A stretch of 64,000 bases of DNA from Apostichopus japonicus (taxonomy: Eukaryota > Echinodermata > Holothuroidea > Aspidochirotida > Stichopodidae), in NCBI RefSeq assembly GCF_037975245.1, contig NC_092568.1, forward strand, positions 11,059,501-11,123,500, written 5' to 3'. The number at the start of each line of letters is the position of its first letter. Within the stretch, counting starts at the first letter, position 1. The position numbers were made by a program, and so were the translations under genes. A model generated the notes under the pieces. That model did not search any database, had not been told where the DNA came from, and saw only the letters and a list, made by a program, of their open reading frames with translations. Positions 12,191-55,439 of the stretch are shown here, piece by piece.

Positions 12191-12289
12191 CGTTTAAAAT
12201 TTCTTTTTTCTATTTCAGTAGTCGACGCTGATGTCTTGATATATTAATTCAACCATATAAATTAATAGCTGATGTGATGGCCGATGCTG

Positions 12290-12562: not shown

Positions 12563-15544
12563 CGTCCACTGAATACGTGGCCTGATGAGGCGCTATTCTC
12601 CTAAAAGCGAATCTACGGGTGCCTTTAAAAGCCGTACAATATTTTTATATTAAAAAACACCCTGTTTCAAACTAGCGCCATCGAATTTCTTAAAAGTCTT
12701 TTTTTCTTTTCACTCTGAAGGTGGAATGGATTTTATTGTAATGGGTTATTTGTGGTAGGCCAAGCAACACATTCAAACAGTCATGCGGTTCACAAGGGTT
12801 GTAGGAACTTGATTAGGTTCATTGTTTGACATAAATGTGTTGGTAAAGATTTACACAACCTACACCAAAACAAGCATTATATTCGTTGCAATACTAGAGA
12901 CACACCAGCAAGCAAGACCATGAAATAAAATTTTAATATACATAGAATTCAATCTATATCACTTTTGCAACAAAACCAAAGTATACCAGTTTCAATATGG
13001 TCCCATTATAAGCAACAGTGTTGTAGCAAATTCTCATACCGAATAGAAGGAAGTTTCGGAAACTGAGTGATTCTTAAGAACTATGTTTGAGATTCACCAA
13101 AAAAATACCCCGTACTGTGTTTTGATAACCTCAGCAACAAAATTAACTTTGATATGCGGTGGACCGTTAAAAACCACTAGAGGTTCACTAGATAAAGTGA
13201 CTGCACCTTTTTTTGTTTTTGTTTAAACAGCCCATCAGACTTGTTAGTCGATTGCACTACAAAACTCAATAGGAAAAGTGAAGATTATATGGTCTCAAAT
13301 GACATGTTTAAAATTTATTACAAATTTGTTAAGGACAAATGATGTCGAATGCCATCCAAGGGTGCTCTGTTGCTCATATGAGGATTAACAAACATATTCT
13401 GGTTGATCTAAAGAAAGAACGGATTAACATTAACTATAAGAACTGCAGTGAGGAGCCGACGTCATCATCAAGTTAGCCTAAACGATTATTCCAGAAATTA
13501 AGTATATTTAACGATACATATCTTGAAAAATACTGGAATAGCTACAGAAACATTATTGGACCCAAACTTGTCTGTTTTCTTTTTATTATAGCATATCAAT
13601 ACTAACATTCTGCCCTATTAATTATTTAATTATTTAAATGAGTTATCGTGTTACAGCAAAATCTACCTGTCGATCATTCTCCCATGATTGATTACCGGGT
13701 AAACTTTTTAAGAAAAGTCATCCAGGAAAGAACCTGGCCAGGAAAATCAAATTACCGAACGACTGATCCGCTCTCAACCCCAGTCCCCTTGCATCGAGAC
13801 TGTGACTGTGTGATTATCGTCAGGTGTGTATAACCATTCACGTCGAAAGTGAACAGATACTACACATGATTTTCGGGAATGTTTTCAAATCTTCGGTCTA
13901 TCTGTTCGTTGTACACGTCTCAGGATAAAACTAGTTTGCTCTCGGAAGAATGTTACCCGATTTCTTGTTCTTTGTTTTATTTGTTTTACAAGTCAATGGA
14001 CTACATTCTGATGAACAATGAACATATGAAGGAAACTGCCATTCATGGAATACCAAGTAGTCCCCGTTATGTCCAACACGTAACACACTAATGGACTTTA
14101 TCGATACTCATTGACAAACCACATCTTCCTTATTCAAAACAAGTTTATAACAATAGGGAGAGATTAATGCCATCAAGTGGTGCAGTTTACTTTAATATGC
14201 ACTAAAACCTGTGCGACAAGATATTTACGCTATGTGAGCAGTCCAGAATTCACAGTGATCGTTAAGCGTTTTAACCGGCTTCCGGTAACACGTATCAAGC
14301 ATTCAATTGATGACTATATAACGACGAAAAGACATTAAGCACATGGACATTAATATCCTCCTACTTGAGGTACGTATGTGAGGCTCATTTACATCCATTA
14401 TTATCAAAATTTGCTGTAAAATAAACTGTGCTAGCAATTTTTTGCGCAATCTGGGAAATCAAACTCGACCGCTTCGAGGAAACTTAAGGTCCCTGAAAAA
14501 AAGAACCGTGTAATGGTATCCCCTCGGTAGGACCATGGAGGATTATATAAGAAAACCCCTTTCATGGGTTCCAAATGAGAAAAATAGAAGACTATAAATT
14601 AAATCCGTTGACAATTCGTTACTTGTTATTGGATAGACCCAGCTATGTTTTTTTATGACGTTTGTTTGGTAAAGTAACGCAAACCTGGTAATGGTGTGGT
14701 TCCAAGCGGAACAATTTTCGGCAACAGCACTAGAAGCCAATGGCGTGCTCAAGGAGGGAGGGCGGGAATGTCCCTTGCTTTGCAAGAACTTTCATTCGCA
14801 TCTGGCTGTTTCCATAACAGTTCAGCCTACTAAACCTAATTCGCCACTACTGCAGGCATCTGTAAATGCTTGTATACAATATGACTCTCTAATAATATAT
14901 GTACATACCCTTCTTAGAAGAGTCTTAGTTAAGGTAGCAAAACACACAAAACCATTATCAGGTGTCCATGTGATAGATATGAACGACATACCCCAAAAGG
15001 TAAGAACATGTTTATTCCACCCTGCAGGGAAATAGAAACTTAAAGGTTCTTTGACAGACAAAGGTAAAAGCTTGAACAAATCAACATATTACAGACCGAT
15101 TCTCATTTACTTTGATTTTTATAGACTAATCATTTATTGCAGTATCTATATTCCGTTATAAAGTTGGGCTTCCCAAAATAACGGTGGATCAAACATGTTG
15201 AATTTCTGAGCATGTACCTAATAAGTAATGCTTTTAATTGTTTCAGTGTCAAATGTGTAAATTCAGCTTGAAAATGGAAAAAAAACAAGGAAAAATGAAA
15301 AGAAAAACAGAAGAAGAATAGCTTAGGGAATAGCCATGTTTGCACATCCTGGCAACACTTTGTTATCATGACCTGACAAAATGACACACTCATAACACAA
15401 ATTTCCATCCTGATATCTCCCAAATATTTCGAAATATTCCTTGAAATGGTAACGTTTTTAAAGTTCAAGAAACTATTTTAATCTTTCTTAATTAATTCTG
15501 GTGTGTTATTCTTTATTTATTTACTATATATCTGTCATACCACT

Positions 15545-34662: not shown

Positions 34663-34735
34663 TTCAGTGGGTAGAGCATTGGACTGGTAACCTGATGAAC
34701 TGAGTTCGACTCCATCAATGGTTGGTTAGACACGT
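34663..34735 (+). repeat. tRNA-Thr-like pseudogene or SINE head, copy II
   Basis: Paralogue of 12,117-12,190 with the same A-box-like and B-box-like words and GGT anticodon position. A few substitutions outside the boxes. Confidence 0.5.
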
Positions 34736-34830
34736 TTAAAATTTCTTTTTCTATTTCAGTAGTCGACGCTGATGTCTTGATATATTAATTCAACCAAATA
34801 AATTACTAGCTGATGTGATGGCCGATGCTG

Positions 34831-35103
34831 TTAAGAGGGTGACGAAAGACTCATTCCTCGTCGGTCGTGTAAATCGTGGCTAGGGTTCAAGACAGGCCTC
34901 TGGCGATAATACCTCTGGCTGTGGCATGGTGCTTTTTTGTGGCCTAGGATCCCGTACCATGTCTCCCTTGTTGTCGCAAAAGAACCCGGGAGGATGCGCA
35001 GAGGGTCGGCCAAATCGACCAGAAGCGTACTAGGTGGCGTGCGTGAATCCTTGCCTTTGGCCAGAGGTGGTGACATCTCTGCGACCGGCATGCTTGCAGC
35101 CAC
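34831..35103 (-). other. Unrecognised GC-rich conserved ORF, copy II
   Basis: Paralogue of 12,290-12,562, again open for 90 codons. The few replacements do not interrupt the frame. No family recognised; it may be part of a retroelement or SINE body. Confidence 0.25.
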
Positions 35104-37020
35104 CGTCCACTGAATACGTGGCCTGATGAGGCGCTATTCTCCTAAAAGTGAATCTACGGATGCCTTTAAGAGCCATACAATTATTTTATATTAAAAAACA
35201 CCCTGTTTCAAACTAGCGCCATCGAATTTATTAAAAAGGCTTTTTTTTTCCTTGTCACTCTGAAGGTGGAATAGACTCTATTGTAATGGGTTATTTGTGG
35301 TAGGCCAAGCAACACATTCAAACAGTCATGCGGTTCACAAGGGTTTGCAGGAACTTGATTAGGTTCATTGTTTGACATAAATGTGTTGGTAAAGATTTAC
35401 ACAACCTTCACCAAAACAAGCATTATATTTGTTGCAATATTAGAGACTTACCAGCAAGCAAGACCATGAGATAAAATTTTTATATACATAGAATTTAATC
35501 TATATCACTTTTGCAAGAAAACCAAACTATACCTGTTTCTGTATGGTCCCATTATAAGCAACAGTGTTGTAGCACATTCTCATACGGATAGTAGGTAGTT
35601 TCGGAAACTGAGTGATTCTTAAGAACTTTGTTTGAGATTCACCAAAAAATACTCCGTACTGTGTTTTGATAACTTCAGCAACAAAATTAACTTTGATATG
35701 CCGTGGACCGTAAAAACCACTCGAGGTTCTATAGTGAAAGTGACTGGACCTTTTAGTTTTTTTACACAGCCCATAAGACTAGTTCCTCGGTTGCACTACA
35801 AAACTCAATAGGAGAAATGAAGATTATATGGTCTCAAATGAAATGTTTATTATTTATTACAAATTTGTTAAAGACAAATGATGTCGAATGCCATCCAAGG
35901 GTGCTCTGTTGCTTATATGAAGATTAACAAACATATTCTGGTTGATCTAAAGAAACAACGGATTAACATTAACTATAAGAACTGCAGTGAGGAGCCGACG
36001 TCACCATCAAGTTAGCCTAAACGAATATTCCAGAAATTAAGTTTATTTAACGATACATATCTTGAAAAATACTGGAATAGCTACAGAAACATTATTGGAC
36101 CCAAAGTTGTCTGTTTTCTTTTTACTATAGCATATCAAGACTAAAAGTCTGCCCTATTCATTATTTAATTATTTAAATGAGTTATCAAGTTACAGCAAAA
36201 TCTACCTGTCGATCATTCTCCCATGATTGATTACCGGGGATACTTTTTAAGTAAAGTCATCCAGGAAAGAACCTGGGCACGAAATCTGAACGTCTGATCC
36301 GCTCGCAACCCCAGTGCCCTTGCATCGAGACTGTGACTGTGTGATCATCGTCAGGTGTGTATAACCATTTCCCTCGTAGGGGAACAGATACTACACATGA
36401 CCTTCGGGATGTCTTCAACTCTTCGGTCTATCTGTTTGTTGTACACGTCACAGGATAAAACTAGTTTGCTCTCGGAAGAATGTTACCCGATTCCTTGTTC
36501 TTTATTCTATTTGTTTTACAAGTCAATGGGCTACATTCTGATGAACAATGAACATATTAAGAAACCTGCCATTAATGGAATACCAAGTAGTCCCCGTTAT
36601 GTCCAACACGTAACACACTAATGAACTTTATCGATTCTCATTGACGAACCATGCATCTTCCTTATTCGAAATAAGTTTATAACAATAGAGAGAGCTTAAT
36701 GCCATTCGATTGGTGCAGTTTACTTTAATATCACTGAAACCTGTACGACAAGATATTTACGCTATGTGAGCAGTCCAGAATTCACAGTGAACGTTAAGCG
36801 TTTTAACCGGCTTCCGGTAACACGTATTCAAGCATTCAATAGAGAAGACATTAAACACATGGACATTAATATCCTCCTACTATTGAGGTACGTATGTGAG
36901 GCTCATTTGCATCCATTAATATCATTTGCTGTAAAACAAACTTTGCTAGCAATTGTTTTGCGCAATCTGGGAAATCAAACTCGACCGCTTCGAGGAAACT
37001 TAAGGTCCCTGAAAAAGCAC

Positions 37021-37049
37021 CGTGAAGAGACTAGGAAACATTTGGGTAA
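37021..37049 (+). repeat. Left TSD (CGTG) and terminal inverted repeat
   Basis: CGTG at 37,021-37,024 is followed by the inward-reading TIR, about 25 bp to GGGT. Upstream sequence ending TAAGGTCCCTGAAAAA is shared with copy I up to 14,500. Confidence 0.88.
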
Positions 37050-37639
37050 TTAAGGAAATATAACTGTTCACCTTTTCTCCAAGTAAAAGCTGAAAAATGA
37101 AAGATGTACGAGTGAATTCTACCCTTTTACGTTGAAATGTGGTCCGTTAACGAAGGCCTGGGTTTTGCATTGTATAAGTACATGAAAAATATGACATTTG
37201 AAATATGTTGCGTATTTTGTCATTTATTTGCATGTAACATTTCTTATTTGTAAAATTCTGTAAATATACATTTATTCAGAAATGCAGGATACATAGCCAT
37301 TTACATGGAATAATTTTACACAACAGTGTTACCTTGTTAATTCATAGTAAAACGAGCAGACATAAACATTTTATCTCTATTCTGGTGGATTAGATGTCTT
37401 AAAAGAGTTTGCTGTTACAGATACTAACAAATTAAGCAATTTAGCGATAACATTCACTATATTTTGAATAAACCATCACTTACTAACAAAAGCAAAGATT
37501 TTTATCGATCAAGTTGACAAAATATAGCAAATATTTAATATATGATTAATTTTGGTATGATTTTCCCAAAGCGAACATAATATACAAGTATTTTTTGATA
37601 AATAGTCATTTTGGGGCACAATGGATAAATTGTACAATT

Positions 37640-38335
37640 TTTTTGTATCTTTGGGGCGTTCCAATACGCCCCAACCAGTTAAGTGTAGCAATACACCTCT
37701 ACTTGTAATTATTTTTATCTAATAACCCTACTAGCGATTGTTTCTATCTTTGGGGCGTACCAGTACGCCCCTAACCAGTTAAGTGTAGCAATACACCAAT
37801 ATGATAAATTGTATATATCTTTGGGGCGTACCAGTTCGCCCCAACCAGTTAAGTGTAGCAATACACCACTATGATAAATTGTATATATCTTTGGGGCGTA
37901 ACCAGTTTAGTGTAGAAATACACCACTATGATAAATTGTATATATCTTTGGGGCGTACCAGTACGCCCCAACCAGTTTAGTGTAGCAATACACCTGTATA
38001 TATCTTTGGGGTGTACCAATACGCCCCTAACCAGTAGCAATATAACCCTACTAGCGATTGTTTCTATCTTTGGGGCGTACCAGTACGCCCCAACCAATTT
38101 AGTGTAGCAATACACTGCTATGATAAATTGTATGTATCTTTGGGGCGTACCAGTACGCCCCAACCAGTTCAGTGTAGCAATACACCTCTATGATAAATTG
38201 TATATATCTTTGGGGCGTACCAATACGCCCCTAACCAGTACCAATATAACCCTACTAGCAATTGTTTCTATCTTTGGGGCGTACCAGTAAGCCCCAACCA
38301 GTTAAGTGTAGCAAATAGCAATACACCTCTACTAG
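37640..38335. repeat. Left subterminal array of palindromic units
   Basis: Ten units, mostly about 70 bp apart, each centred on a palindrome such as GGGGCGTACCAGTACGCCCC followed by AACCAGTTAAGTGTAGCAAT. Palindromes start near 37,653, 37,752, 37,823, 37,893 (half deleted), 37,951, 38,008, 38,077, 38,147, 38,213 and 38,277. Variation lies mostly at the centre (CCAG or CCAA) while the arms are kept. Beginning about 630 bp inside the left TIR, it is a likely protein-binding cluster, with transposase or the ParB-like protein as candidates. The long minus-strand ORF here is a repeat artefact. Confidence 0.9.
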
Positions 38336-38731
38336 ACCAATTGATAGTACTTTTTGGCTTTAAGCTCCTCGTTAGAAAGAAGGATTTCTATAAGCCTACA
38401 TCTATACTTAATTAATGTGCCAAACTTAAGATGGTTGGATGAAAAATTAAGATTTTTATTCATTTAGAGAAGTTCTGGTGACCATTTCAACACCAGATGC
38501 ATTTTTTTATGTACTTTCAGTAGGAGGCATATCAATAGCAGCTCTTTAATGGGGGGGGGGGGGCAGAGAAAATTATGTATGTTTTTAAAAACTACATGTA
38601 TATCTTCCTTTACACCAGTTGTTACAAGAAAATAAGATTAAACACTGCCCACTCAATAATATGTGTAACACATAAGGTGTCCTAGTTGTTCAGCTCAAAT
38701 TCTTCATCTATAGCTGCATATCTTTCTCAAG

Positions 38732-41700
38732 TCACAAACTACCCTCTTTGGAAGGCGATATTTTTTGGGTAAAATTAAAGCCCCACAACATTAGGGAATG
38801 GAAAGAAACTGATGATGTGTATGGCTGCTTATTTCTTCCTTGGCCACAGTCTAGCAGTTTCCAGTCTCCAGTCCAGGATCCCTTCATCCAATGTAAGATA
38901 ACCTCATCCTTTTCAATCTTTGTGACTTCTCCAATGTATGGTCATTTGCTTGATTCAATGAGGTTCACGGCTGCTATGTTCCTAACTTGAATCGATGAAT
39001 AATCAGATACCTCAATGACTTCTTTAGCAACAACATCACGGCCTTGAGTTCCAATTGTTACCTGCAAAGGTTTCAGCAAAAACAACAGAATAGGGTAAAA
39101 GCACATCTTGAGCACCTTTTTGGAGATATCATGATAAACCAGAACACACAAACTAATCGCATTTTGGAAAATGCAACATGGTTAATTTATTTTGTATGAA
39201 AGTGATAGTGTATATACAACAAAAGTTATAACAATAAGCATTGATATTTTACAAACAATATATTCTAAAAGTCAGCTGCTGACCTATAATGTTTACATGT
39301 TGACCACAAGTGATGTTTCCACAATCATCAATACCAATAAGTTTGTTTTAAGCAGTGTGACACATGCATACTCATGCCAGCATTAATACATTGGTTACAG
39401 AGCCTCCAGCATAGGAATACAAATTTGAAAATTAATAGGTGAATTGCCCATTAATTGTTCAATTTCTAGTATTGAAATAATCTACATATTCAACATCACC
39501 AATTTTAGTTCAGAATAATAAGAAAGAAAGACATTGTAAAGTGAAACAGATAAACATCTCACCACAGGGCATGTTGGTTGGATTCTACCCTTCAAAGTCT
39601 CTAACTGGGCAGAACTTTGTTCCTCACTATCAGGAATTCTCTCAACTTGGTCAAGCTCTAAGAGGTCCCAAATGTCAGGCAGAGGTGGTAGCTATGTGCC
39701 AAGAGAAGAGTTATGATCAGAAAAATAACCTTATAAGGAGAACCACACAAAAAAATGTTTGCCTACAGCAAATTATGTTTGTTATCCTGCTGATGAAAGA
39801 AAATAAAATACTTATTTGATCTGCTATTCCTGGCTTGAAAAAAGAACTGTATTCAAACCACGACCACGGTCAATACCTATATTAAGTGTCATGAGCTAAG
39901 TGAAGACTAAACAAACATAAAATAATTAAAAAGGAACTATATCATATATGAGAATTCATTTCTTTAAGTTATATTATAATATGTTACCTTTTGCCATCCT
40001 TAATATCTATCGGTAAAACAATTATTGCAAATCGGTATTACTAATTTACTTGTGGAAATAGCAAGCACTGTTCACTCTAGCACTGTTTGGGATGACACTT
40101 CATTGTCAAAACATAAGGAAGCACTTTGCTTAAACTTAACTTCTCCTTACAGGCAAACTCTAAGTTTATTGTTAATGTAATGTTTAAAAAACATGTTTCG
40201 TTGTATGAACCTTTATTACCTCTTCAAGACGTGAAATGGAGTTAAGATACTCTTTCAATTCAGCTCTCTTTGTGACGGGCAAACGTTCACCATATCGATC
40301 AGGAATATCCTTCAAAAGATTTGGCAGATCAGTTCTTTCCAAACATGGTACAACCCATCCTGGCTTGATTGAGAGATCTGGCATTGACTGCACAATGAAA
40401 TATAAAAAATATAGACATTAGATAGTAAGGTAATATTTGATATAATTCTGACTTTGGGATTTCCAAATGTATTACCTAATTTCATAATTTGTAATTTTTT
40501 TTTTCAAGATCAATGTGAATAAAACATTTCATTGTTGGTAGAGGGGGAGGGGGTTATCTTGAATTTAAAACAATGTTTAATAAATCAATGTTTTCACCCC
40601 AATTTGAAATAAACAATTAATATTTTTTTTACCTTGAGACAATGGCACATGTCTCTGGTTGCCATGGATCCTGATGCCACATCTTGTACCTCATTTCAGC
40701 ATGACCATTTTGATAGGTAAATTCAAACCATAGGGGCTTGGAATGGTTTGCAAAACTACCAGCAAGATGAGGAGTTAACCATTCCTTCACATTCAAGTTA
40801 TGTTGAATTTCCTCCACCTCAATGGCAGGTGTGAAGCTAGCTTTGATGAAAGAACTTAGTTCTATAACAACAAAAGTAAATAAATAATACAATGAATACC
40901 CACATCAAAAATACATAGAATGTGACATTACTTCAAATATACGTATTTGTCAATATACTCAATTAGTTGGGAGTACAAATATTAATTTACACTTATGTAG
41001 AAGTTGACATAATTTACCCAAACTAAAATAAAATATACAGATTGTTCCAACAGTTTGCATTACCAAAATAAAACATTGAGAATGCACATTGAATACAAAT
41101 TCATGAAGCATAACACATTTTTAAAGATTAAGCAATTTCTTCTATACATCAGCATATGGTGTCATTTGACATAGGTAGGTGTTAGGAGCCTACGATCCAG
41201 TTGCCAACAATCCTTGCAAGTTGATGTTTGGTACATGATTATTTCATGACAACCTATTTTAAGGCATCCTATTTTTTGCTATGCAAAGGTTGGATGTGGG
41301 ATTTTTGCACAGATTAGACAAGTATTTGTTGCCCAACTCATGGTGAGCTCTTCTTTGAGCTTATAGTTTGGCCCATATTGTGTTGAGTATTGCTTAACTC
41401 CAAGCATTGTGATTCCCATATCATAATTCCCATGAAGTAGTATTTTATTTAGGTGTTAAGAACAATTCAAGTTGCCTATGCAATGTAAAATAGGTCATTT
41501 GAAATTGGTAGCCACAATTCCAAATCGAACAACTTCAATGTTACTTTTAGATAGATAGAATAGTTTTACATTGTTGTCATAAACGCCTACTCACAGATAC
41601 AGTATGCATGAGATACACAAGACCCTACCCAACCTGACGCCAGCTATTGAGAATTCATACCCATGAAAAATAAATGTTAATTGTCCTATATCCTGTATCT

Positions 41701-42867
41701 CTATGGTTTTGTAGCCGTAATATCAACATCCAATATGGTAGCACAATACAACCTTCCATTTGATATTGGCCTCTGGATATGCTCACTTTACCTACAACTT
41801 TTCACACACAGACATGTGCACATTCTGATCTGACAGCATTTGTTCATGATAATTATGAGATTATTAACCAAAAGTAAAGTAACTGTAAATAAAGATGAGA
41901 TAGATCCTGGTTCAGTGATTGACTAAATTAAATACCTTGATCTGTATAAGTGTTCTGTTTCTTCAGTGCCCTGGCGATACAGCTGAACATTTGGTCTACA
42001 TCCTCGTGAGTGTGGCCCACAGGTAAGAAATGCACAGTGACCTGTAGATTGAGTGAAGATTTTAGTCAAAGGTTATCATGTTTGTAACATTTTCAAAAAC
42101 TGACCCTGTTTACTTTGAATGACTTATCACCTCCAGCCGAAGCAAAAGGGGATTATCTACTTACAAAGAGCTACCTACATAACAACTTCAAGCAAGGTTA
42201 CAGTACTTTTGAGATATAGTGTTTACAAGGTATCTAGTCTTTGAAGTCTATTGAAGTCAAATGACCTTTGACTACCATGAAAAACAATAGGAATCATTTA
42301 CTGACCACAGGCTACCATTATAGCACTGTAAGTTTAAAGTTCAACCAACTTTTAATTCTTGAGATAAAATGTTTACAAAGTTTTCTGACTTGAACAAGTC
42401 TGTTGACCTCAAATGACCTTTGACCTCCATGATAAACAATAGGGTTCATCCTCACACCATGGGCATCCTCACACCATGGGCTACCTCAATTGCATACCAT
42501 GAAGTTTGAAGTTCAAGCAACTTCTACTTCTTGAGATATTATATTTACGAGCCACGATGTCACATACTGTACACACATGCACAAAATCATAATCGCATAG
42601 ATTCCTTACAATTCAGCAATGAAGTAAGACAGCTGTTAACAAGTTATAACATTAATATATATTACCACTCTGAAGATCTTCAACTCTACCAGCAAGGAGC
42701 AGAAGGACAGAAGATATCGGTTCTTATTCTCCCTGTAACAATTATCCAATTGCAAAAAGAGATCCTTCCCAAGAGTATCCTTATGCTTCACTAGTGTCCG
42801 CAAAATGCACGTTATGGTCATGTTTGAATCATGTGGGATATGCTTCACATCAGTGTATACAACAGAC
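38732..42867 (-). CDS. Transposase-like gene (DUF7869-type), decayed and N-terminally incomplete
   Basis: Six minus-strand exons are visible: 42,867-42,666; 42,041-41,936; 40,861-40,633; 40,387-40,220; 39,691-39,563; 39,061-38,732. The first two join in phase to give PHDSNMTITCILRTL, LFLQLDNCYRENKNRYLLSF and FLPVGHTHEDVDQMFSCIAR. These are the hallmark motifs of a metazoan family often filed as DUF7869; the DN and HTHED residues suggest an RNase-H-like acidic site. The last exon reads PYIGEVTKIEKDEVILHWMK, the usual C-terminal region. It has an in-frame TGA just before this segment, and exons three and four do not join in phase, so this copy is probably inactive. Upstream N-terminal exons were not found. 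The transposase role is inferred from family abundance and its place inside a TIR element. Confidence 0.75.
42100..42545. repeat. Dispersed GACCTCAAATGACCTTTGACC repeat, about 2.5 tandem units
   Basis: Units of about 165-170 bp with the words CTTGAGATATTATATTTAC, GACCTCAAATGACCTTTGAC and AAAACAATAGG. They lie in the intron between the first two visible transposase exons. The same family occurs inverted or diverged at 17,990-18,220, 22,430-22,600, 25,130-25,310, 27,830-28,010, 44,160-44,560 and 51,280-51,480. I know this pattern as a common non-coding repeat of marine invertebrates; I cannot name its class. Confidence 0.7.
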
Positions 42868-45800
42868 CTTCAACATCAGGAAAAGAGAAAAGAAAGGTTC
42901 AACACAAGTTACCTGTGCTTCACAAGAAGAGGAAGAGCAATAAGGATCAGCCAGTTGTCAGCCCTCTAGAAAGCGTCAAGAAGGAAGTCAATGCAGCATT
43001 TTTAGGTGAGAACCCTTAGAAGGTGTCAGGTACGGTAGCAGTACAATAAACTGCCTCAGGAATTGGAACTGTTGTGGTTTAAGTACAGGGATTCTCTACT
43101 GGCCAGATTGAGCATACCAGACAATCTAATCAGGCCCATCAAAAATACAAAGGAAACAAACCCAACATTTTGGTTCACCAACTTACTGGAGGAAAAGTTG
43201 TGAAGAGAATTGGGATAAGCATTAAGTTTCATCATTATAAAACGTTGATAAAAGTTTGTCCTGTGCTAAAACAATCATCTTCCATTTCCATCAATCTATT
43301 CTTGGCCCTTTATTAGTCAAAATGTCCTCCATGGTGGGCCTGCATACTGTATGAGTGATAAACAGAGTTGTTAAATTCATTAACATCACTTTCTGTGCAG
43401 TGTACTTCATACTGAGCCATCTGTATGCCTCCTACTGCATGCCCATTAAGAACTGCCTCAACTGTTCACTTTTTCACCGGAAATTCACAACATAGATAGA
43501 AGTATTATTTTTTTATTTGAGTGTTATCGGGGAGGGGGCCATAGTTAACCCAATAAATAATGTGTTCATTAACTGAACATTGCTTTTCAACATACTGTAA
43601 CAATCATTATATTCACTGTGCACAGTTGGTTTGAATAGTATTGGCATGCTTTAAGGAAAACCTTTTGCATACCTACAGTATGGCATTTCCCTGTCAGTTA
43701 ATTGATGTTAACTTTGTTACAGAAATTGATTTACCATTGTTTTAACTTCTCCACAGGTGTTGCAAATATTGACATTGAAAATCTAGAAGTTGGTCTGAAG
43801 TTGAGAGAAGTGAATGTGCAATTTCTCACCAAACTGAAAGAGGCAATGTTAGATTTTACCAACCACAGTTATCAACCACTGACTGTCATAGCAAAAACTT
43901 TGGAAAACTGGGAGAATTTTTCAGAAGCCACAGTGAGTAATCAGCACTTGATTATAAAGTGATTTTGATAATGGAGTGAATTTTAATTGTTTATCAAAAA
44001 CCATGCAGCAGTGACTGCATGTGTGTGCATATGTGAGAGAGAGACATCTTAGCTCAAATTTTGAAAACTTTGATAATTCAACAATTGCAATATGCATGAA
44101 GTTCATACTGTACTTGGTAGAAAGCTACCCCTTTGCAAATTCTCAGCTACAATTGTTTTCGGGAGAGGTCAAAGGTCACTTGAATCGACAATGGTCAACA
44201 AGTAAAAACTCTATAAACATATCTCACCAAGTACAGCTTGCATGAAGTTAATGCTCAGTATGTAGACACTCTTAGTAAATAATCAGCTGGTAGTGTGTTG
44301 GGAGAAGTCAAGGTCATTTGAGGTCACTAGTGGTCAACAAATGACAACTTTTATAACTGAAGGAGTGAAACTTTTGTTAATGTCAAATTTGGTACGAAAT
44401 AGGTCTCCTTTATAAGCATTGTCTTCTATTTTTTGTTGTGTCGGTCAAGGTCATTTGGGGTCAGTTTAATTCACAGTCTGAAAACTCCTAAAACATGGTA
44501 TCTCACCATGTACATGGGAATATAAGCCCTAGACGAGAAGAACAACATGAACAGATATTTTACTTGACATATGGATCCCACATACATCATAATTTTAAAA
44601 ACCTTTCAAAACACGATAACTCAGGGTTGTCCACACCATATCTTTGAATACACGTTTAATTCTCCTTTGCTAATAATATTTTTCCATTACACTGTGGATC
44701 CCCTGTACTCAGTAGAACTCTCCCCTCCAATGCCCTACAATAACAATAGCCAAGGAATCACTAAGCCTAGTGGCTTTCTGTTTGTATGTCAATTACACCT
44801 GATCTTTGAGGACCAAAGTCATGAAATTACGCTTCTTTTTGATAAATGTAACATTTTGTAACAAATTTTTCTTTCAGGTTAATGGATACCATTATGAAGT
44901 AATTGGTGGCATCCACAATCTGACAGCCTGTAAGGACTTGAGAGAAGAAAATCCTGACAAGAATGTGTTTGCTACCCGTCTGTGTGTAATTTACAGCAGG
45001 TCTCTATCTAAAGATGCAAAACTTTGGTTGGCTAACAAACACAACAAAATAGGGGAAACCAGGCATCAGATGAGCCTTAAGGAGAAGGTGACTACCATGA
45101 ATGTAACATTGTTTTAATAGAAGAATTTCTGCCATGCAGTTATTCATTTCATTCCTCCATATTGTATATTCAGGTTGCAATGACCAATGCATTATGACAT
45201 TAAAGTGTGCATGGAAAGTCTTTGTCTATACATAACACATAACTTTGTGTTGTGCACATAGAATAGCTCTCTTACAGTATGTGAATTTTCAAATGATTGT
45301 TATCTAATTACTCTCATAGGGAGGATTAGGTACAATATTGTAGTTCTTTTGCCAGTTGGACCATTAACAGTAACACGCAACAGTTGCCTTGGTAGTGATT
45401 ATTTTTCCTATGTAGGGACAATCGAGGGGTCATTCATTGTTGGGTATTGCATGGTGATCGGAGGTGCATGACTGAGGGAGGGGTAAAAAGTTGTCTGTAT
45501 GTGGGGTCCTCTTGAATGGCTGGTTTGATTTTCTTAAAACATGGTATGAAGCTGTCCTAGGGTAAATGTCTATGTCTAGCAGACCCCAGAAACATAGGTC
45601 AAATGTCACGTCAAATTAAATTCAATATTTTAATTCAATATTATTCCAAGGGTAAACATAACATTCAAATGGAATCTTCACTTGTATAATGAGAACAACA
45701 TGTAGGCTACTAATACAGGCAGAAACTTGACCTATTCCATAGTATTACTCAGATTGTAGAGGACAGCAGAGTGATAACACTGAAATCATATGACAGTATA

Positions 45801-48800
45801 GTCCTGCTAACTTATCATATCAAAAAACATTAGAGCACCATGATGCATTGTGTTCGTGAGTAATCCAACATTGTGAAAGCTTGTTTGGGATTCACCTTCT
45901 GCTTGTCCAAATTGGACACAGACTAGGCCTATAGCTATATGGGAACGCAAAGTCTGGTGGTGTACATACACTTTAAAGGCATACAGTAGGCACATATATA
46001 AGGGTGTCAATGTACGAATAAAACATATTTTTTACATTGGTCATAATGGTAATATCTGTTTATAAGTATGCTGATGATGAAATATGCAACTCTATATACT
46101 GCCCTCTTGTGTATAACTATACACGTATACATATAATCACATTGGTAATACTGCTTTAACCTTAAAATATTTTCACCCTAAAGCAGACATGGATTGCAGA
46201 CCCTGGAGCAATAATACTAAAGTATACAAATATATGACCCAAGCATTGTTTTATCTTAAGAAACAAAAGTAGGTGTGACATAATGACATAAGGAGCAGAA
46301 CAACTTTGGTTGCCTTGCCCAGTTTCGGTTCTGCTCTCCAAATGATGAACATGGTATGTTATATCTAGTTTGCATTTGGATTAGTTCGGATTCAGTTTGG
46401 ATTAGTTCAAGAATATTGTTGTGTTTTGATGGGTTCAATAAGTAACATTGTCCCTTTTTTAACTTGTCCTGATTCTGGTTAGATTTACTGTTCCTTTAGG
46501 GGTGTAGGGGGGGGGGAGCTGGAGGGAGTGATTGGTGTCAAAAAGTGTACATGGTCACCAACAGTCTTGCATAAACTGTGGAGGAACTTCTGTACATATC
46601 AAGTATAACTTTTCAACCAAGGTATGCTAAAACTGTATAATTAAATTTGACTACTGTATTCAGGCTAAAAGAACCTTAGACCAATATAAGTAATTTCTTT
46701 CCCATGGAAATTAAAATTTCTTAACATTAAGAACATTAAGAACGATTCCCAGTACTTATCAAAGGTATATATGTTTCAATCAACTATCTTTAGCATCTCT
46801 TGCCTCAATAAACATTGAACTCCATGGTAAACTATAGTGGTTAACCCAAGGAGAATATATGCAACATGTTTCATATTCAATCAATTTTCACTTATGAAAA
46901 TAGCTAAAAGGTAATAGCTAAAACTGTTGTGCATTATGGTGGTAATTGTGGAAAACAGAAATGCACCTTGTGTAATAGACCAGTGTGCATCCATACTAAA
47001 CTGTTTCTCAAGTATTGAATGTTATCACATCTTTCAGGTTAAAGAGCAAAGAACCATTAATCTCCTCTGCAACATTGTGAGTAGAGACGATGATGAGGAA
47101 TACAACCTCCTTGAAGAAGTCCTGCAGATGAGCGAACACGGGCAGCTGCTTGGACAAAAGGTGAAGACAGGGAAAATGTTCGTTGATGCAGTCAAGCCTT
47201 GTCAACTGCGTTACTTGACTGGACTCCCTGCTTCATCTACTAAAACCCTTTTGAAGGAGCTGTCCAATGGAATGATGACTTTGGGGCGCGCAATTCAAGG
47301 AGGAAACGCATAAGCTGATAAAGCTCCTCAAAATCCAGCAAATGATCCTGGACTTGGTTGGTTTGGAGACGTGGGAGGAGGCAGAAGAGAAGTTTCCAGA
47401 AGAGACAGGGAGATAAATCATTTTCCCCTTCATAAGGTCCCTCAGGAACTGAAGAGTTATTGTAGTCTCCTGAAGGCTAAGGAAGAGACCAATGGCCTAT
47501 CAAGACCATATCAAATTGGAGGAGCCAGCTGTGTGTTGAGCCAGCTGGATCCAAGGGCAATTACCTTGCCAACAATGCAGCTGCCAGATGCATTCAAAGG
47601 ATTTCCTTTGATTGTGCTGAATACGCCAAAGGTTTGTCAATCAATGTTAATTCAACAGAGGCCTCCACGTCGACCCTCTCAGATTTGGCTGAAACTGATA
47701 TATAGTAAGCTGTCTCAAATGCAGATATTGGGAAAAAAGATGTTGGATACACTTTTGCAACAAAACTATGGTATTTCTGAAAGGGCCCTACAGTTTCCTT
47801 CAAATGTGGAGGCATTTTTACATACATGTTGAGTATTTGATGTCTGAAATTGCAAATGTTGTAAAACACATGAAACCAGACATCCAATTTAGCTAATTTT
47901 GGTCATAATTTAGGGCCTTTTAAAAGCTACCATTGATTTGTTGGTAGGTGTGGCCATATCTTAGCAAGCAAAATGTTTGGAACATTTTTTTTGGGTCCAA
48001 CATTGCCTATGCGACATGTGACAAGACAATGTATCAGTTTCAGCCAAATCTGAGAGAGTCGACATGGAATCGGTCAAAAAATCTGTTGATTTGACATGGA
48101 TTGACTCTTTTGTCTTTTTCATGTGAAAGCAGATCATTCTAAACTTATATGTGTCAATCTGATTGTGTCTGGGACACTGCATGCACAATTTGTGCATGCA
48201 TTAAGCAAAGTATGAACCTTAATCTAGAATCATGACATGTATGATGCTCTCTCACTGTTTAATTTACAATACAATGTTAGTTTTCAAAGCTATGTGCCAT
48301 TTAGATTTACAAAATTACTATTTGAAGAAGGCTGGTTTCTACTCTGTGTATCAAGCTTGCTATAACTACTGTCTTGGTATACATTTAAGTCACATAGTCA
48401 GACCTAAAACCTTTAATAACCTTACACAGTACAAACAACAGTTTGGTGATTATATAATGAAAATTGGTGGCAACGTCATATTACACTGCAAACTCATGCT
48501 TCAAAAATGTTATCCTAGTTACTGCATTACGGTACTAGTCACACACACAAACAGTAATTTTGCACATGTAGGGACATGCATCACTGTTGCTACAGTATAA
48601 TCATCATATGTTGTTTAACGGTTGGTTTGTTTGAAAGTTTTATTGGGCTTAATGAAAAGAGGAGAGAGCTCTGTATTGTATATCTAGGATTGAGTATGGG
48701 GTGTTCATTTAAAATGACTTGTCTCTGCAAGATTAACCTACAGTGGTTAATACTCATCATTTTTTTCTCAATTTGTTATGATCTCTACAGGGATGGATAT

Positions 48801-50880
48801 GTGAAGATGTAAAGAGGTTCACAAACAAGGCTGTTTCCCTGAATCTGAAAGTTGGGCTCAGAGATTTTAAGTTGGTTGTGATGTGTCCAGCAGCAGATTT
48901 GCAGATTATGTGTGAAGACATAAGGGCAACAGAGCATTTTAATTCTGTGATCCCTGCTTACTTTCACATTAGAAATGCAAGATCAGGTAAGTTTCTGAAT
49001 TCAAATGCTGCCAGACAGCTTTTATAATGTTGTGATAGGATTCACAAAGTAGTAGTGTATATTGCTCTAGTAATGTGTTGTAGTAGTGTATATTGTATAT
49101 TGGGTTTTTGCCATTTCCTGGGACTCTGCAAAAATTTTCCCATACAAGTTAGTGATTAAAATACTGTTGTCTTAATGTCAAGCTTAGGAATATGTCTCTT
49201 TAAAAGTTGACTTATTCAATTGGTTTATTTCATTTTATGTTTGCTACTCAATAAGATTATTAAGTTTATGATTTAAGCATTTAACAGCATGGTAAGACTT
49301 ACAATCAGGGGATTGTTTACTGGTAATGGTTCTAAAGACAATAGGAAAAATTGAAGCACAGAAGTTATAATTTTGGCCTATTTTGAAAACAGCAAAGAAA
49401 AAAGAAATAGCACAGCAGAATAGTTGTAACGAATGAGTTTGGATTTTCATTGTCCTTAGCACATGTACCTGATTGTGATTTAGTAACCATATGTCTGAAT
49501 TGTCATTATGTAGTTAATAGGTATTAAATATGGAAAAAATAAATTCCTGTGTAGTTAGGCTGGCCCAAACAAATGCTGTTGCAACAGGTGAATCTGATTT
49601 GCCAGTGGTAGTTCTGAACTCAAAAAGTAATATTCAAATACGTCCTAGTTTTCAGAATTGTAAAAATCTATGAGAAAGTATATAAACATATTTATGAGAG
49701 TCAGGTAGATTGTGACAATTAAGGACTTTGATTATGATGAGTAAAATGTCCTGGTAATATATGCCTGTCTTCCGATCTTAAAGTACATTTCAATCAACCA
49801 ATAAAGCTCTGTACATGAATTACTATGCTTTATTCAAAATGAGCAAAACAATTATGTTTGTGTAAAAGGTTAACTGTTGAAAAATTATGATTGTTGCAGT
49901 CTTTGTTCATTTGTTATTTTACTATCAATGCATCACATGGAAATAAAGGGTAAGACTGTCAGGGTACAATAAAGCTTTATTTCTCTCTTTTTTTCTGAAG
50001 ATGACACAGAAATGCTCACGCAGAGTCTGTTTGGTCTGGCCATTGCATTTAAGGGGAAGACCGTTGCAAGGAAACTTATATGGGATGATGGCACAGACCT
50101 TAATGTGCTTACTGTTGCTAGGGATGATCCTCTGAACACAGAGGATGAAATTTCTTTAGATGATGAAATAATCACCTCAGGAGAGTTGTACCAGAGATTG
50201 GTTGCAACATTCACTACAACTGGCCAGTGGGTTTTGGATGCATGTTGTGGCACAGGTAAGAACATATTGTGATGCTGTCAGTGGAACAAGTACTGATTCC
50301 TAGAAAAATGTATCTGTGTATTTATAAATGCCTTATTGTGGTTTTCTTAAAATAAAGTACTGTTAAAGTTTGTACTTAGTTGCTGGTTATCCTAGTGGGA
50401 TTAACATGTATGATATTGAGTGAGCTGTACTTCTTTAGAAAACTAATATCTGCATAATCATGTGCAACGTTTACATTAATTGGTTTTCTATCCACATTAA
50501 ATGGTGATTAGGGATATCGCTAGTGCAAAAACAGAGAATATTAAGCCGTTCAATGTGTGTGCTTGAATATGGGGAGTTATCAATTCACATACTTCAAACA
50601 TTGTTGCTCTTTAGCAAGATATGAATCATAGTCCTTGGAATCTAACGTTTTCTGATCTTCAGGAAGGAGTTAGCCCCTACTTTACTTTACATTAATCATC
50701 TTTGTTTAAATATTCATACATACAGATAACGGGGTTGTTGCAATTCTGAAAAGTGGGAGGAATTGTGCAGGTGTGGACTGGGATGACGGCAAAATAAAGA
50801 TGGCCAGAGTGAGAATGGCAAGGTGTTTAGCCATTGCTAAGCGACCAGAAGAGGAGAAAGAAATAGAAATAGAAATATAA
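42831..50880 (+). CDS. ParB-like domain fused to SAM-dependent DNA-methyltransferase-like domain
   Basis: Seven phase-consistent exons: 42,831-43,005; 43,757-43,932; 44,878-45,087; 47,038-47,631; 48,791-48,986; 50,001-50,255; 50,726-50,880 (about 586 codons). Exon 1 is basic, with a nuclear-signal-like HKKRKSNK. Exons 2-3 match a ParB N-terminal domain: NIDIENLEVGLKLREVN, QPLTVIAKT, then YEVIGGIHNLTACKDL, where GGIHN stands for the usual GG.HR. Exons 5-7 match a beta-class amino-methyltransferase fold: KGKTVARKLIW, then VLDACCGTG (SAM motif I) and GRNCAGVDWDD (ribose-binding acid). The expected DPPY motif IV appears as CPAA at 48,884-48,895, so catalysis is doubtful. Exon 4 has an in-frame TAA near 47,311; the next 110 bases read better in another frame, so there may be two compensating indels or sequencing errors. 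After the TAA at 50,878 an acidic tail stays open to about 50,963. Confidence 0.82.
43039..43203 (+). pseudogene. Orphan exon-like ORF in intron 1 of the ParB gene
   Basis: A stretch after a stop reads QYNKLPQELELLWFKYRDSL and then LARLSIPDN, followed by NPTFWFTNLLEEKL and a stop. In another frame the sequence continues VKRIGISIKFHHYKTLI, so the piece looks like formerly coding sequence with a frame break. It has coding-like composition but no clear splice sites, and I do not recognise the family. It could be a lost exon of either transposon gene or a remnant of a third. Confidence 0.4.
44160..44560. repeat. Dispersed GGTCAAAGGTCACTTGAGGTC-type repeat in intron 2
   Basis: Three imperfect tandem units with GTCAAGGTCATTTGAGGTCA words, the same family as at 42,100-42,545 in the opposite orientation. 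Confidence 0.65.
45088..47037. other. Intron 3 of the ParB-methyltransferase gene
   Basis: No additional exon or mobile element recognised. It contains a G run near 46,508-46,517. Short ORFs on both strands have no family features. Confidence 0.5.
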
Positions 50881-51279
50881 GCAGAGGAGGAAGTAGGTGA
50901 GGAGGCAGAAGAGGAGGAGGAGGAACTAGAAGAGGAAGAGGCAGAAGAAGAAGAAAGCATTTAGTAAATTTAAGTGTCACATCTCAAGGCTTCATTCTGT
51001 AATAATTAGATGTAGTTCATTATTAATCCTGACTAAAACCTACAGTATATCAGATACATAAAAGATTATTGATCATTTATTCAATGTTAAAAAAGTACTG
51101 TAAGCTTCTTTTGTTATGTTGTATGGTGTTTGCATTCATGATGGTGTATGTATAGGTGCGGGTGTGTATGTGCGTTTGTGACACCCAGCTTGTAAACACA
51201 ATATCTGAAGAAGAGAATGTCGGACCAAATTCATATTTAGTGTAGAGAAGTACCACATTAAGTACAAAGAGTCTATTGG

Positions 51280-51480
51280 TTTTGGTGGAGGTCAAAGGTC
51301 ATATGGGGTCATCAGAGGTCAACTTTTGAAACCTTGTAAAAAAAATATCTCAATATTGGAAGCTTGGGCAGATCTCATACGTGGTATGAAGGTACTATAG
51401 CACTGATTAAAAAAAGCCTATTGATTTTGGTCAAAGGTCATTTGTGGACGGCAGGGAGGTTAATTGTCCTGTAGGGTATA
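51280..51480. repeat. Dispersed GGTCAAAGGTCAT-type repeat
   Basis: Two or three short units with GAGGTCAAAGGTCATATGGG and GTCAAAGGTCATTTGTGG, downstream of the methyltransferase stop. Same family as the intron copies. Confidence 0.6.
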
Positions 51481-51994
51481 TATTTTCATAATCAGGAAGT
51501 GGCAACCCTGAAACAGCCACGAGGTCTACTGCTCTACAAATCCTAAATTGCTTATTTTAAGCGTAAATGAAATAAAAAAAATAAAGCCAATCTAACATAC
51601 TTCTACTGACATTTCTCTCATTTAGCTTCCTGTACCCCTTACTCAAATATAATTTAAAGACAAACAAACTTCATGGCGCGGGCAGAGGTCAATGGTCATG
51701 GGTCAAATCGTGAAAACCATGCTTCACACAATATTTCAACGAGACAGATGCCAGTTGATGAAAGTTAGTATGTAGTATCACATTAGTACTAGAATCTCAG
51801 GACAGCCTGTGTCATTGTGAATTTATTGTTTGTTGTCAAATCACACTGCTTGTCACTCTATTACCAGGATCAAGTATGTTGTACCCCTTCACAATATATT
51901 ACGACAGATTCATGAAGAAAACTGCTCGTTACTTCGTCGAAAACACTGTTGCATTCTGCTTCTTGGTTCTCAAACAAATTACAATAAGTGTGAG

Positions 51995-52210
51995 GGTGAG
52001 TGGGGGAGGGGGTGGGTGTGTAAGGTTACAATGGCTTCTATCATTGTATTTTTTTGGTTTAAAATCATTAATAGGGGTATTGGTATGCCCAATGGGGCTG
52101 AGTGGGGGGGGGGGCAGGGGGTGGGCAAGGTTACAATAACTTCTCCTATCATTGTATTTTTTTGGTGCAAAATCATTAGTAGGGGCATTAGTATGCCCAT
52201 TAGAGCAATC
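51995..52210. repeat. Two-unit tandem duplication with degenerate palindromes
   Basis: Two units of about 110 bp share GGTTACAAT, CATTGTATTTTTTTGG and AAAATCATTA. Each ends in a weakened form of the array palindrome (AGGGGTATTGGTATGCCC and AGGGGCATTAGTATGCCC). They lie just inside the right subterminal array and may be its oldest units. Confidence 0.65.
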
Positions 52211-52279
52211 TGAGGGTCTTAATACATCCTTCAGAACTGCATTATAAGCCACTTAGTGTTGTTATTAATGGTATAATTT

Positions 52280-53170
52280 CTTTGTGATAAATGACACTAC
52301 AACCAGTAGCGGGGCGTATTGGTACGCCCCTCAGAACTATACTGTAAGCCACTTAATGGTGTTACTTTTTGGTGATAAATGACACTACAACCAGTTCAGA
52401 ACTGTACTGTAAGCCACTTAATGGTGTTACTTCTTGGTGATAAATGACACTACAACCAGTAGCGGGGCGTACTGGTACGCCCCTCAGAACTGTATTGTAA
52501 GCCACTTGATGGTGTTACTTCTTGGTGATAAATGACACTACAACCAGTAGCGGGGCGTATTGGTACGCCCCTCAGAACTGTACTGTTAGCCACTTAATGG
52601 TGTTACTTCTTCTACTTCTTGGTGATAAATGACACTACAACTAGTAGCGGGGCGTATTGGTACGCCCCTCAGAACTGTACTGTATGCCACTTAATGGTGT
52701 TACTTCTTGGTGATAAATGACACAACAACCAGTAGTGGGGCGTATTGGTACGCCCCTCAGAACTGTACTGTAAGCCACTTGATGGTGTTACTTCTTGGTG
52801 ATAAATGACACTACAACCAGTAGCGGGGCGTATTGGTACGCCCCTCAGAACTGTACTGTTAGCCACTTAATGGTGTTACTTCTTCTACTTCTTGGTGATA
52901 AATGACACTACAACTAGTAGCGGGGCGTATTGGTACGCCCCTCAGAACTGTACTGTATGCCACTTAATGGTGTTACTTCTTGGTGATAAATGACACTACA
53001 ACCAGTAGTGGGGCGTATTGGTACGCCCCTCAGAACTGTACTGTAAGCCACTTTATGGTGTTACTTCTTGGTGATAAATGACACTACAACCAGTAGCGGG
53101 GCGTATTGGTAAGCCATTCAATGGTGTTTCTTTTTGGTGCTTAATGACACTCCAAGCAGTAGTGGGGTGA
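52280..53170. repeat. Right subterminal array of palindromic units
   Basis: About ten units of 89-95 bp containing ACAACCAGTAGCGGGGCGTA followed by TTGGTACGCCCC and a constant tail (TCAGAACTGTACTGTAAGCC). The palindrome is the reverse complement of the left-array form, so the two arrays face each other like the TIRs. One unit near 52,395 lacks the palindrome, and the last ones near 53,098 and 53,163 are incomplete. The array ends about 430 bp from the right TIR. Confidence 0.9.
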
Positions 53171-53573
53171 TTGTTTACACTGATTCACTCTTTTACAGGG
53201 ACAAAAGGTATTTATTTTCCTTTTACTTCATGTAAGATAGTAACCTACTAAAATTAAGTTTATGGTCATGGTCATAAAATATAACATGAAATACATAAGT
53301 GAGTACAAACAAAGAACAATTTTCTCATTGTGTTATTTTTTGTCTCAAATTTATGTACCTGCAGTATGATTACAATGCATTTGACCTTTCTAACTCACAT
53401 TTTGAAGGTTTATAGACAATGACAGTCATAGCGTAGTTTTTTCCCTTATATATACAATATTTTCATACCCGAGTGCAAACGTCATCAGAAGCTATATAAT
53501 TGCTGGTAAATTTATCAACGTCGAACAAAAAGGTTTTTTTCTTGGATAAAAGTCAGGTTAAACTAGTTCCTAG

Positions 53574-53603
53574 AAACCCTAAATGTTTCCTATCCTCTTC
53601 GTG
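53574..53603 (-). repeat. Right terminal inverted repeat and TSD (CGTG)
   Basis: ACCCTAAATGTTTCCTATCC followed by TCTT, then CGTG at 53,600-53,603 and TAATGGTATCCCCTCGG, which continues copy I at 14,511. Confidence 0.88.
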
Positions 53604-54053
53604 TAATGGTATCCCCTCGGTAGGACCAGGGAGGATTATATAAGAAAACCCCTTTTATGGGATACAAATGAGAAAAATAGAGGACTATAAATTAAATTCG
53701 TTGACAATTCGTTACTTGTTATTGGATAGATCCAGCTATGTTTTTTTTATGACGTTTGTTTGGTAAAGTAACGCAAACCCGGTCATGGTGTGGTTCCAAG
53801 CGGAACAATTTTCTGCAACAGCACTAAAAACCAATGGCGTGCGCAAGGAGGGAGGGCGGGAATGTCCCTTGCTTTGCAAGAACTTTCATTCGCATCTGGC
53901 TGTTTCCATAACATTTCAGCCTACTATACCTAATTCGCCACTGCTGCAGGCATCTGAAAATGCTTGTATACAATATGGTTCTCTAATAATATATGTACAT
54001 ACCCTTCTAAGAAGAGTCTTAGTTAAGGTAGCCAAAGCACACCAAACCATTAT
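53600..54053. repeat. Segmental duplication, copy II (right part)
   Basis: Continues copy I from 14,507 to about 14,962. It includes a conserved open stretch on the plus strand beginning VWFQAEQFSATALKTNGV, present in both copies but without recognisable function. Homology stops near GTAGCCAAAGCACACCAAACC. Confidence 0.88.
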
Positions 54054-55439
54054 CGACATTTTAAAGAAAGTTTTTAGAAAATGCCAACATTTCCACGGAC
54101 TTTGGTAGGCCTATGACAAACCACAAAATAATAAATTGTCGGTTAGCTAGCTGTCAATTTCCTCATAGAAATGAAACCGGGCATTGCTTTTACGTCGGTA
54201 TACCAATGTGCTATGCAGTCATACTTGTAACATTGACTCGAATTTTCAAAGATTACATCTGCCTGGGTTAGTATTATACATGTTTAGACATGGCAAAACT
54301 AGAAATGACGGATAAATCCACACCTCAGCTCCCCCCTTCTTCGCCGTTCATGTAGAAGGTGAATAACCGACACTCGATGTAGTAGGCTATATAATTGGTC
54401 AAACTGGTGCAGAAAGTGTCCTGCAAAGTCATTCCTATAAAACGGAAATGCTTTGAACGCTGAGCTTTGTGATGAATGCTATGTTTTTTGTGTAATATTG
54501 AACCTTCGTGGTTCACGATCCACACGCTTATGTTGTCTGAATAATTCTTACGTCATATCATGGTTCATTCTCCTCCTTTAGTTTCGACCTCTAACGACTA
54601 GCTCTATACAAATCGCCAATACAATCGCTTTGTCTTTATTATTGATTACTTGCAGCGAGTTTTTATATACCTTGCACACACATACCTCATCGATGAGAGA
54701 TGCCATTCATTTTATCCCGACGATTTGAGCAAATAGCACGTAGGCAGTGTCTGTCTGTAACGTTACCATCCACCTCATGTCTTTCGACCTAAAAAAAAAA
54801 AAAATTACCGCCGAGCTATAATTCGATCTAATTTGCATTGTATCTGTAGGACAGACATTCTAGCTGAAGTTACAGATTTAAGATCAGGTTGTAAATGCTG
54901 TCAACTTTCGCCGACCCCCCCCCCCCCCGAAAAACATGATAATATTAAAGTTAATAGGCAAGTATTTCGTACAAAAAGGAATTGTAGAGGCTCCGACACT
55001 ATTCCACAAAGCTCGAAAACCTCTGCAGATGATTTTCGAATCAGTTTGATATAGTACAGAAGATAAACACACTGGCTGTTGACATAATTGACCAATCATG
55101 GTTACAACAAGAAGGCAATCACTGCAGTTGATAATCCCAATATTTGCATATTTGATAACTGCAAATGCACCTATATCTTATTTTTTTTAACTGAGAGAGG
55201 GTTTTTTCAATATTTTTCAAGCATGTTGTCACAAAATGCTTGAAAAACATTAATAAAATGCAGTCTAAAACATATATATAGCTATGTTGATAGTATTGTT
55301 CTGACATTTCTCTTGATGAATTTCAGCATTAAAACAAATTTGTCAGCTGGAAACAATATGTAAATGCTAAATGGCCATCTAAATGTTCTAAACCAAGACA
55401 CCCTGCTTTGATCCTGCGTACATCCTTGGACCTTGGAAC
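54054..55439. other. Unique spacer without recognisable gene
   Basis: AT-rich sequence with a poly-A tract near 54,790 and a poly-C tract near 54,915. Short ORFs lack family features and paralogues in the window. Confidence 0.5.

Follow-up and report, generated by a model that had tools for sequence, protein, structure and literature searches.

One of two duplicated segments in a stretch of Apostichopus japonicus DNA is interrupted by 16,575 bp, and the question raised by this locus is whether the insert is a DNA transposon, as a first-pass annotation had proposed, and if so what kind and what moves it. The stretch analyzed (the window, 64,000 nt in all) is C8:11,059,501-11,123,500, and the genome searched comprises 671.6 Mb in 35 contigs. 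Coordinates of features are given in Table 1. By self-BLAST, window positions 10,253-14,500 match 32,806-37,016 at 93.4% identity, and 14,507-14,959 match 53,600-54,054 at 94.7%. Because both flanking matches adjoin at 14,507, the duplicate at 10,253-14,959 is uninterrupted where the one at 32,806-54,054 holds the insert. Read directly, the filled site runs ...ACCGTG/AAGAGACTAGGAAACATTTGGG...CCTAAATGTTTCCTATCCTCTT/CGTGTAATGG (slashes marking the junctions), and the empty site at 14,507 reads ...ACCGTGTAATGG without a break. The CGTG is duplicated without any deletion scar; a short distance (a few bases) to the left of it, a small indel distinguishes one duplicate from the other. The annotated ends, terminal inverted repeats (TIRs, 22 bp) and CGTG duplication on both sides are thus confirmed, as is the presence of an empty site in the same window, the one pre-insertion site found for the family described below. 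The window is full of segmental duplications by self-BLAST, and at 21908-29683 a unit of about 2.7 kb forms a tandem repeat whose copies are about 98% identical, with older relatives close by. No tRNA was found in it by ARAGORN, and no Rfam family at threshold.

Table 1. Positions of the insertion, its arrays and its exons within the window
Feature	Position	Strand	Basis
Transposon copy (16,575 bp), belonging to a larger family and internally deleted	37025..53599	+	Junction bases, self-BLAST, genome copies
Left target-site duplication, CGTG	37021..37024	.	Junction bases; family rule, 34/38 exact
Right target-site duplication, CGTG	53600..53603	.	Junction bases, duplication count across copies
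Empty (pre-insertion) site in the duplicate, with CGTG once	14507..14510	.	Junction bases, self-BLAST
Left TIR, 22 bp, AAGAGACTAGGAAACATTTGGG	37025..37046	+	Junction bases, genome pattern search
Right TIR, 22 bp, minus strand = AAGAGGATAGGAAACATTTAGG	53578..53599	-	Junction bases, other copies
Left subterminal array, 9 palindromes of type GGGGCGTACCAGTACGCCCC, period ~70 bp	37653..38295	.	
Right subterminal array, 8 palindromes, mostly of type GGGGCGTATTGGTACGCCCC, period ~88 bp	52311..53029	.	
DUF7869 exon D, second conserved Asp (LQLDNCYRENKN); cut at 42860, upstream exons missing in the window copy	42666..42860	-	
DUF7869 exon E, third acidic cluster GHTHEDVDQ	41936..42041	-	
DUF7869 exon F	40629..40861	-	Limits by comparison with the C22 copy
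DUF7869 exon G	40220..40387	-	
DUF7869 exon H	39563..39691	-	Matches P0001
DUF7869 last exon, approximate limits; in-frame stop and frame changes in the window copy	38670..39061	-	
Second gene, exon 1	42831..43006	+	Annotated protein P0121
Second gene, exon 2	43757..43932	+	
Second gene, exon 3	44878..45087	+	
Second gene, exon 4; stop after a frame change in the window copy	47038..47313	+	
Exon with SAM-binding-like motif VLDACCGTG; presumed linkage to the second gene	49997..50255	+	
Following exon (NCAGVDWDDGKIKMARVRMARC), methyltransferase-like	50726..50880	+	

If the insert is a transposon, further copies with the same termini should lie at unrelated sites, flanked by duplications of 4 bp or, as had also been considered, 2 bp. 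Searches of the genome with both 300-bp ends found many such copies with 4-bp duplications. The left end gave at least 40 matches at 94-100% identity (40 of 45 candidates scored), and the right end at least 40 at 91-100% (40 of 56). Allowing up to two mismatches, the 22-bp left TIR matched at 79 places on both strands and the reversed pattern at none, so these termini are not peculiar to one locus. Flanks were read for 39 other left ends, 39 right ends, and three further right ends. With the window copy included, there were 40 left ends, 39 of them paired with the nearest right end on the same strand; four of 42 right ends lacked a listed left partner (two on C19 and two on C22), and for the left end at C22:17182692 no right end was found on its strand. 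The paired copy at C20:18636464, whose outermost left bases are lost, was excluded from the duplication count, leaving 38. In 34 of these the 4-bp duplication is exact, in three it has one mismatch, and in one (C4:5083542) there is none; mispaired ends, as a control, match over 4 bp in 19 of 1,406 cases. Flanks match at k = 2 in three of 38 copies and at k = 3, 5, or 8 in none, which gives no support to a 2-bp duplication and upholds the reading of the insert as a DNA transposon. There are 36 distinct flank pairs rather than 38 because three copies on C16 share theirs. These three (L013, L014, and L025) have a common AATA duplication as well, and probably lie on a duplicated chromosome segment.

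The duplications include CGTG, TACA, GCTG, GGTG, GTTG, TTAA, and GAGT, with no fixed motif among the 38. There is a weak symmetric target preference, A-N-[4 bp]-N-T, with A two bases before the duplication in 21 of 38 copies and T two bases after it in 28 of 38. The termini are AAGAG..CTCTT or one-base variants in the copies read, and a right-TIR variant, CCTATCC, is common to four copies: that in the window and those of 15.2 kb on C12, 37.0 kb on C22, and 2.7 kb on C14. Twenty left ends besides the window's are 97-100% alike. Since these ends are so similar and 34 of 38 duplications are intact, the spread is recent; this is a giant TIR transposon family that has recently spread in A. japonicus. 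Another copy, 45.2 kb long and in opposite orientation, is found at C8:11166241-11211398, about 53 kb from the window copy. Contig C16, 6.9% of the genome, has 13 of the 40 left ends among the matches listed, or 11 of 38 if two duplicated insertions are left out (binomial P 3e-5).

A length of a few kilobases is usual for cut-and-paste DNA transposons; here most of the copies that share these ends and have a 4-bp duplication exceed 22 kb. End-to-end lengths of the 39 paired copies range from 2.7 to 45 kb, plus one pair at 124.5 kb, with a median of 28.5 kb, where interiors were read in part and some lengths include later insertions. The three shortest measure 2.7, 15.2, and 16.6 kb (the window copy), followed by 35 of the 39 at 22.3-45.2 kb, 16 of these at 22-27 kb. 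The 16.6 kb of the first-pass annotation falls below the usual size, the window copy being internally deleted. In the 124.5-kb pair (C1:3183886-3308397) the left and right ends have matching TAAC duplications, and the interior was read to 9.6 kb; this is either a huge element or a set of nested insertions. Compared with a 37.5-kb copy on C16 (35.6 kb read), the window copy is without about 17.3 kb between 42,860 and 42,861, and the C16 copy in turn is without window positions 39,031-42,640, 45,832-49,893, 50,151-51,395, and 51,578-52,103. The last 10.0 kb read of the C16 copy (C16:19760870-19770883) are unmatched to the window copy, and these roughly 10 kb toward its right end are probably a later insertion. 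None of 20 other left parts, read to 9.6 kb, has a match of more than 300 bp to the window copy beyond 39,030.

The presence of a DUF7869-type gene, noted from the sequence at first, is confirmed by Pfam (PF25273) in three exon pieces of the window copy, with E-values of 3e-25, 5e-14, and 3e-10; it is more probably the transposase than a piece of cargo. A fuller version is found in the C22 copy (C22:19530270-19567292; 37,023 bp, 10 kb read), where seven exons bounded by GT-AG sites give an uninterrupted frame of 687 codons, in a model whose 5' end lies beyond the stretch read. NCBI's annotated protein P0001 agrees with this model over exons B-G, with a different start, a shorter first part, and two extra exons, and scores 222 bits against the Pfam DUF7869 profile (cut-off 26). 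The protein spliced from the C22 copy is 100% identical to an annotated A. japonicus protein over 68% of the query. The window copy keeps exon D through the last exon, with everything upstream of D missing at the 42,860/42,861 junction; without the N-terminal exons and with a stop in the last exon, it should therefore be non-autonomous. The exon E region is found three times in the genome, in the window, on C12, and on C22, always in a copy of this transposon family, and the N-terminal exons and exon E were seen together only in C22. In five other copies exon A has two or three stops, with 43-47 amino-acid-changing and 20-24 silent codon changes, third positions being changed somewhat more often. 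Judged by these sequences, most copies look non-autonomous and outnumber those with a full gene, and since exon E is left in just three, most must move in trans.

A search for DUF7869 homologues returned 161, and the 120 listed come from echinoderms, hemichordates, amphioxus, a nemertean, molluscs, cnidarians, sponges, and metagenome contigs. Across 60 aligned homologues the acidic residues D146 (59/60), D149 (59/60), D230 (58/60), E269 (55/60), and D272 (59/60) are conserved, along with C86 (59/60), C89 (60/60), H115 (60/60), and H266 (60/60). The acidic pattern can be written D-84-D-39-E, with spacings of 84 and 39 residues leading to E269, and this is a plausible spacing for DDE enzymes. 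Sequence and profile searches of the PDB gave no match between the DUF7869 protein and a transposase among solved structures; a profile match to Nipped-B-like protein (E 6e-15), in the C-terminal part of the profile, is suspected to be due to composition. Two amphioxus DUF7869 proteins (P0024 and P0036) also carry PF02902, which we take to be a Ulp1-type protease domain. The term "DUF7869" was not found in any paper of the open-access literature searched.

In the A. japonicus genome itself the DUF7869 profile has 53 exon matches, 43 of them within copies of the family by position. The others are six in a pair of loci on C16 and C17, one each on C12, C20, and C17, and one further on C17. The C20 match (C20:9563474-9563869) lies in an 875-aa open frame without stops. 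The paired loci (C16:42322458-42324087 and C17:24708225-24709854), with equal scores, represent a second DUF7869 family. Two probes spaced about 5.5 kb from each other are the same in both loci (150/150 and 149/149), and downstream of the gene each has a tandem array, the two arrays differing in length by 935 bp. The pair may be a segmental duplication; unlike probes were considered as possible borders of this second family and discarded, as they are accounted for by the 935-bp register shift. Arrays on the downstream side of a DUF7869 gene may be a common trait.

The subterminal palindrome arrays were described correctly at both ends of the window copy. All 17 occurrences in the window of the 20-bp palindrome (up to two substitutions) are inside them, and since the left palindromes are of one type and the right ones mostly of the other (Table 1), the arrays face each other. 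Twenty other left ends have between 0 and 25 palindromes. Arrays of short subterminal repeats inside short TIRs are also a feature of EnSpm (CACTA) elements, where the subterminal repeats are binding sites, and by analogy we think the palindromes here are candidate binding sites.

A second gene lies on the plus strand, its exons 1-4 annotated as P0121 (278 aa). Further plus-strand exons hold VLDACCGTG and CAGVDWDDGKIKMARVRMARC, with weak matches to methyltransferases, including phage DNA methyltransferases. These would form one gene with exons 1-4, which may thus end in methyltransferase-like exons, as the following matches faintly suggest. For the last exons, PHROG gave methyltransferase at E 4e-6 and DNA methyltransferase at E 6e-5; Pfam PF01555 (N4/N6 DNA methyltransferase) reached 20.4 bits, below its cut-off of 26.7; all NCBIfam scores were below cut-offs, the best being for a non-DNA methyltransferase; the best PDB matches were to dehydrogenases and to methyltransferases acting on small molecules, a DNA methylase being matched at E 0.02; and the best phage tblastn match among those listed had an E-value of 5e-3. 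No motif IV of the DPPY type was identified by eye in what is an incomplete gene model, and a ParB-like domain read by eye in exon 3 found no support in Pfam, PHROG, or NCBIfam. Among the best 40 of 44 candidates the VLDACCGTG exon is complete in only three, again those in the window, C12, and C22, while in the remaining 37 the match is to its first half. For the second gene, one search gave no homologue at E 1e-3, and another returned the window's own gene alone (best 8,000 candidates in each).

Taken together, these comparisons argue for a giant cut-and-paste TIR family making a 4-bp staggered cut, with the DUF7869 protein as its most likely transposase, a reading to which we would give a probability of roughly 80%. 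The DUF7869 gene, on the minus strand and with at least nine exons, would encode a putative DDE/D enzyme that recognizes the 22-bp TIRs and probably also the 20-bp palindromes arrayed inside them at both ends. The element would move by cut-and-paste with a 4-bp staggered cut, and the rare copies keeping the full gene would supply transposase in trans to the deleted ones. Movement is read here from the copies and their flanks; DDE chemistry, palindrome binding, and supply in trans are what we infer from residues, arrays, and the distribution of exons. If DUF7869 is the transposase, this would propose a function for proteins that are widespread in marine animals and now called "uncharacterized" in the animal groups named above, and the family would offer a natural system for the handling of very long DNA by a transposase and for the role of subterminal palindrome arrays.

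Other accounts of the insert differ in what they take to be new or to be moving. That it is a one-off rearrangement or segmental duplication might be thought from the duplications in the window and the common flanks of the three C16 copies, but the 38 copies have 36 different pairs of flanks, with a 4-bp duplication in nearly every case, which leaves this with next to no probability. A virus-derived or self-synthesizing element (Polinton/Maverick or Teratorn-like) would suit the size, Polintons being typically 15-25 kb and reaching 40 kb (PMC6431247); in the scan of 20 ORF pieces from the window copy, however, no polymerase, integrase, or viral structural family has a significant match, and such an origin is very improbable. 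DUF7869 could instead be a passenger or accessory, the mover being a transposase from some other superfamily that is supplied in trans or has its gene in an unread or unscanned part. Nearly all copies are without DUF7869 exon E and have spread all the same, and, the family scan having covered 20 ORF pieces of the window copy, another transposase gene could lie in the part of the common copies that is missing from the window copy, or in the 27 kb of the C22 copy beyond the 10 kb read. Against this, no other transposase matched among the same 20 pieces, a DDE-like set of residues is kept across the 60 homologues, and DUF7869 genes occur at several further loci; we consider the passenger role unlikely.

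With DUF7869 preferred as the transposase, its classification can be considered. One possibility is that the family belongs, as a giant branch, to a superfamily already named, with Sola (Sola1/2/3) the likeliest, in which case only the size and the second gene would be new. The motifs DNC..NKN and GHT..D may resemble those of Sola-like proteins, which is a lead in this direction. In Sola2 elements the target duplication is 4 bp long, the TIRs measure 12-13 or 21 bp, and there are chimeric forms whose interiors differ (PMC3627910). Their duplications are AT-rich according to the same source, however, whereas CGTG, GCTG, GGTG, and GTTG are among the 38 here, and no Pfam transposase family matched among the pieces scanned. 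Membership in Sola is quite possible on this evidence, if a little short of even odds. The other possibility, put forward tentatively and with the odds somewhat against it, is that DUF7869 is the hallmark of a superfamily of DDE transposons new to animals, characterized by a 4-bp duplication, AAGAG ends, and subterminal arrays of palindromes, with full elements that reach about 37 kb and carry a DNA-modifying methyltransferase gene, and with internally deleted derivatives, still giant, moved in trans.

Superfamilies with TTAA targets, 8-bp duplications, or CA..TG ends do not agree with the ends or duplications of the copies read. Like Kolobok/KolobokP, this family is found in animals and has 5'-RR termini (PMC9587614), but the TTAA target of Kolobok and piggyBac is seen in just one of 38 duplications, and the 8-bp duplication of KDZ (Zisupton) has no counterpart at k = 8 in any of the 38. 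A 4-bp duplication is within the 2-5 bp range of the EnSpm/CMCT clade (PMC12730594). The ends differ, however, being AAGAG..CTCTT rather than the CA..TG of most CMCT cases, and P0007, inspected by eye, has no C(2)C motif in the interval from its second D to E269. A putative DNA-modification gene on a DNA transposon is also described for fungal elements carrying TET/JBP (PMC12730594); the exons here are instead methyltransferase-like, and weakly so. Sola2, compared by description only, shares the 4-bp duplication, short TIRs, a large transposase, and chimeric non-autonomous forms (PMC3627910), and differs in its AT-rich duplication rule and in that the usual length here is 22-45 kb. The giant eukaryotic DNA elements of a 2019 review are Helitrons, Polintons, and Teratorn, and no TIR element of comparable size with a plain 4-bp duplication appears in the available part of its text (PMC6431247). 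With Teratorn and Polintons (PMC6431247), and with Starships, the A. japonicus family has in common that it is a giant mobile DNA element of eukaryotes; it is set apart from them by the lack of a viral or polymerase gene in the pieces scanned, and by its combination of TIRs with a plain 4-bp duplication.
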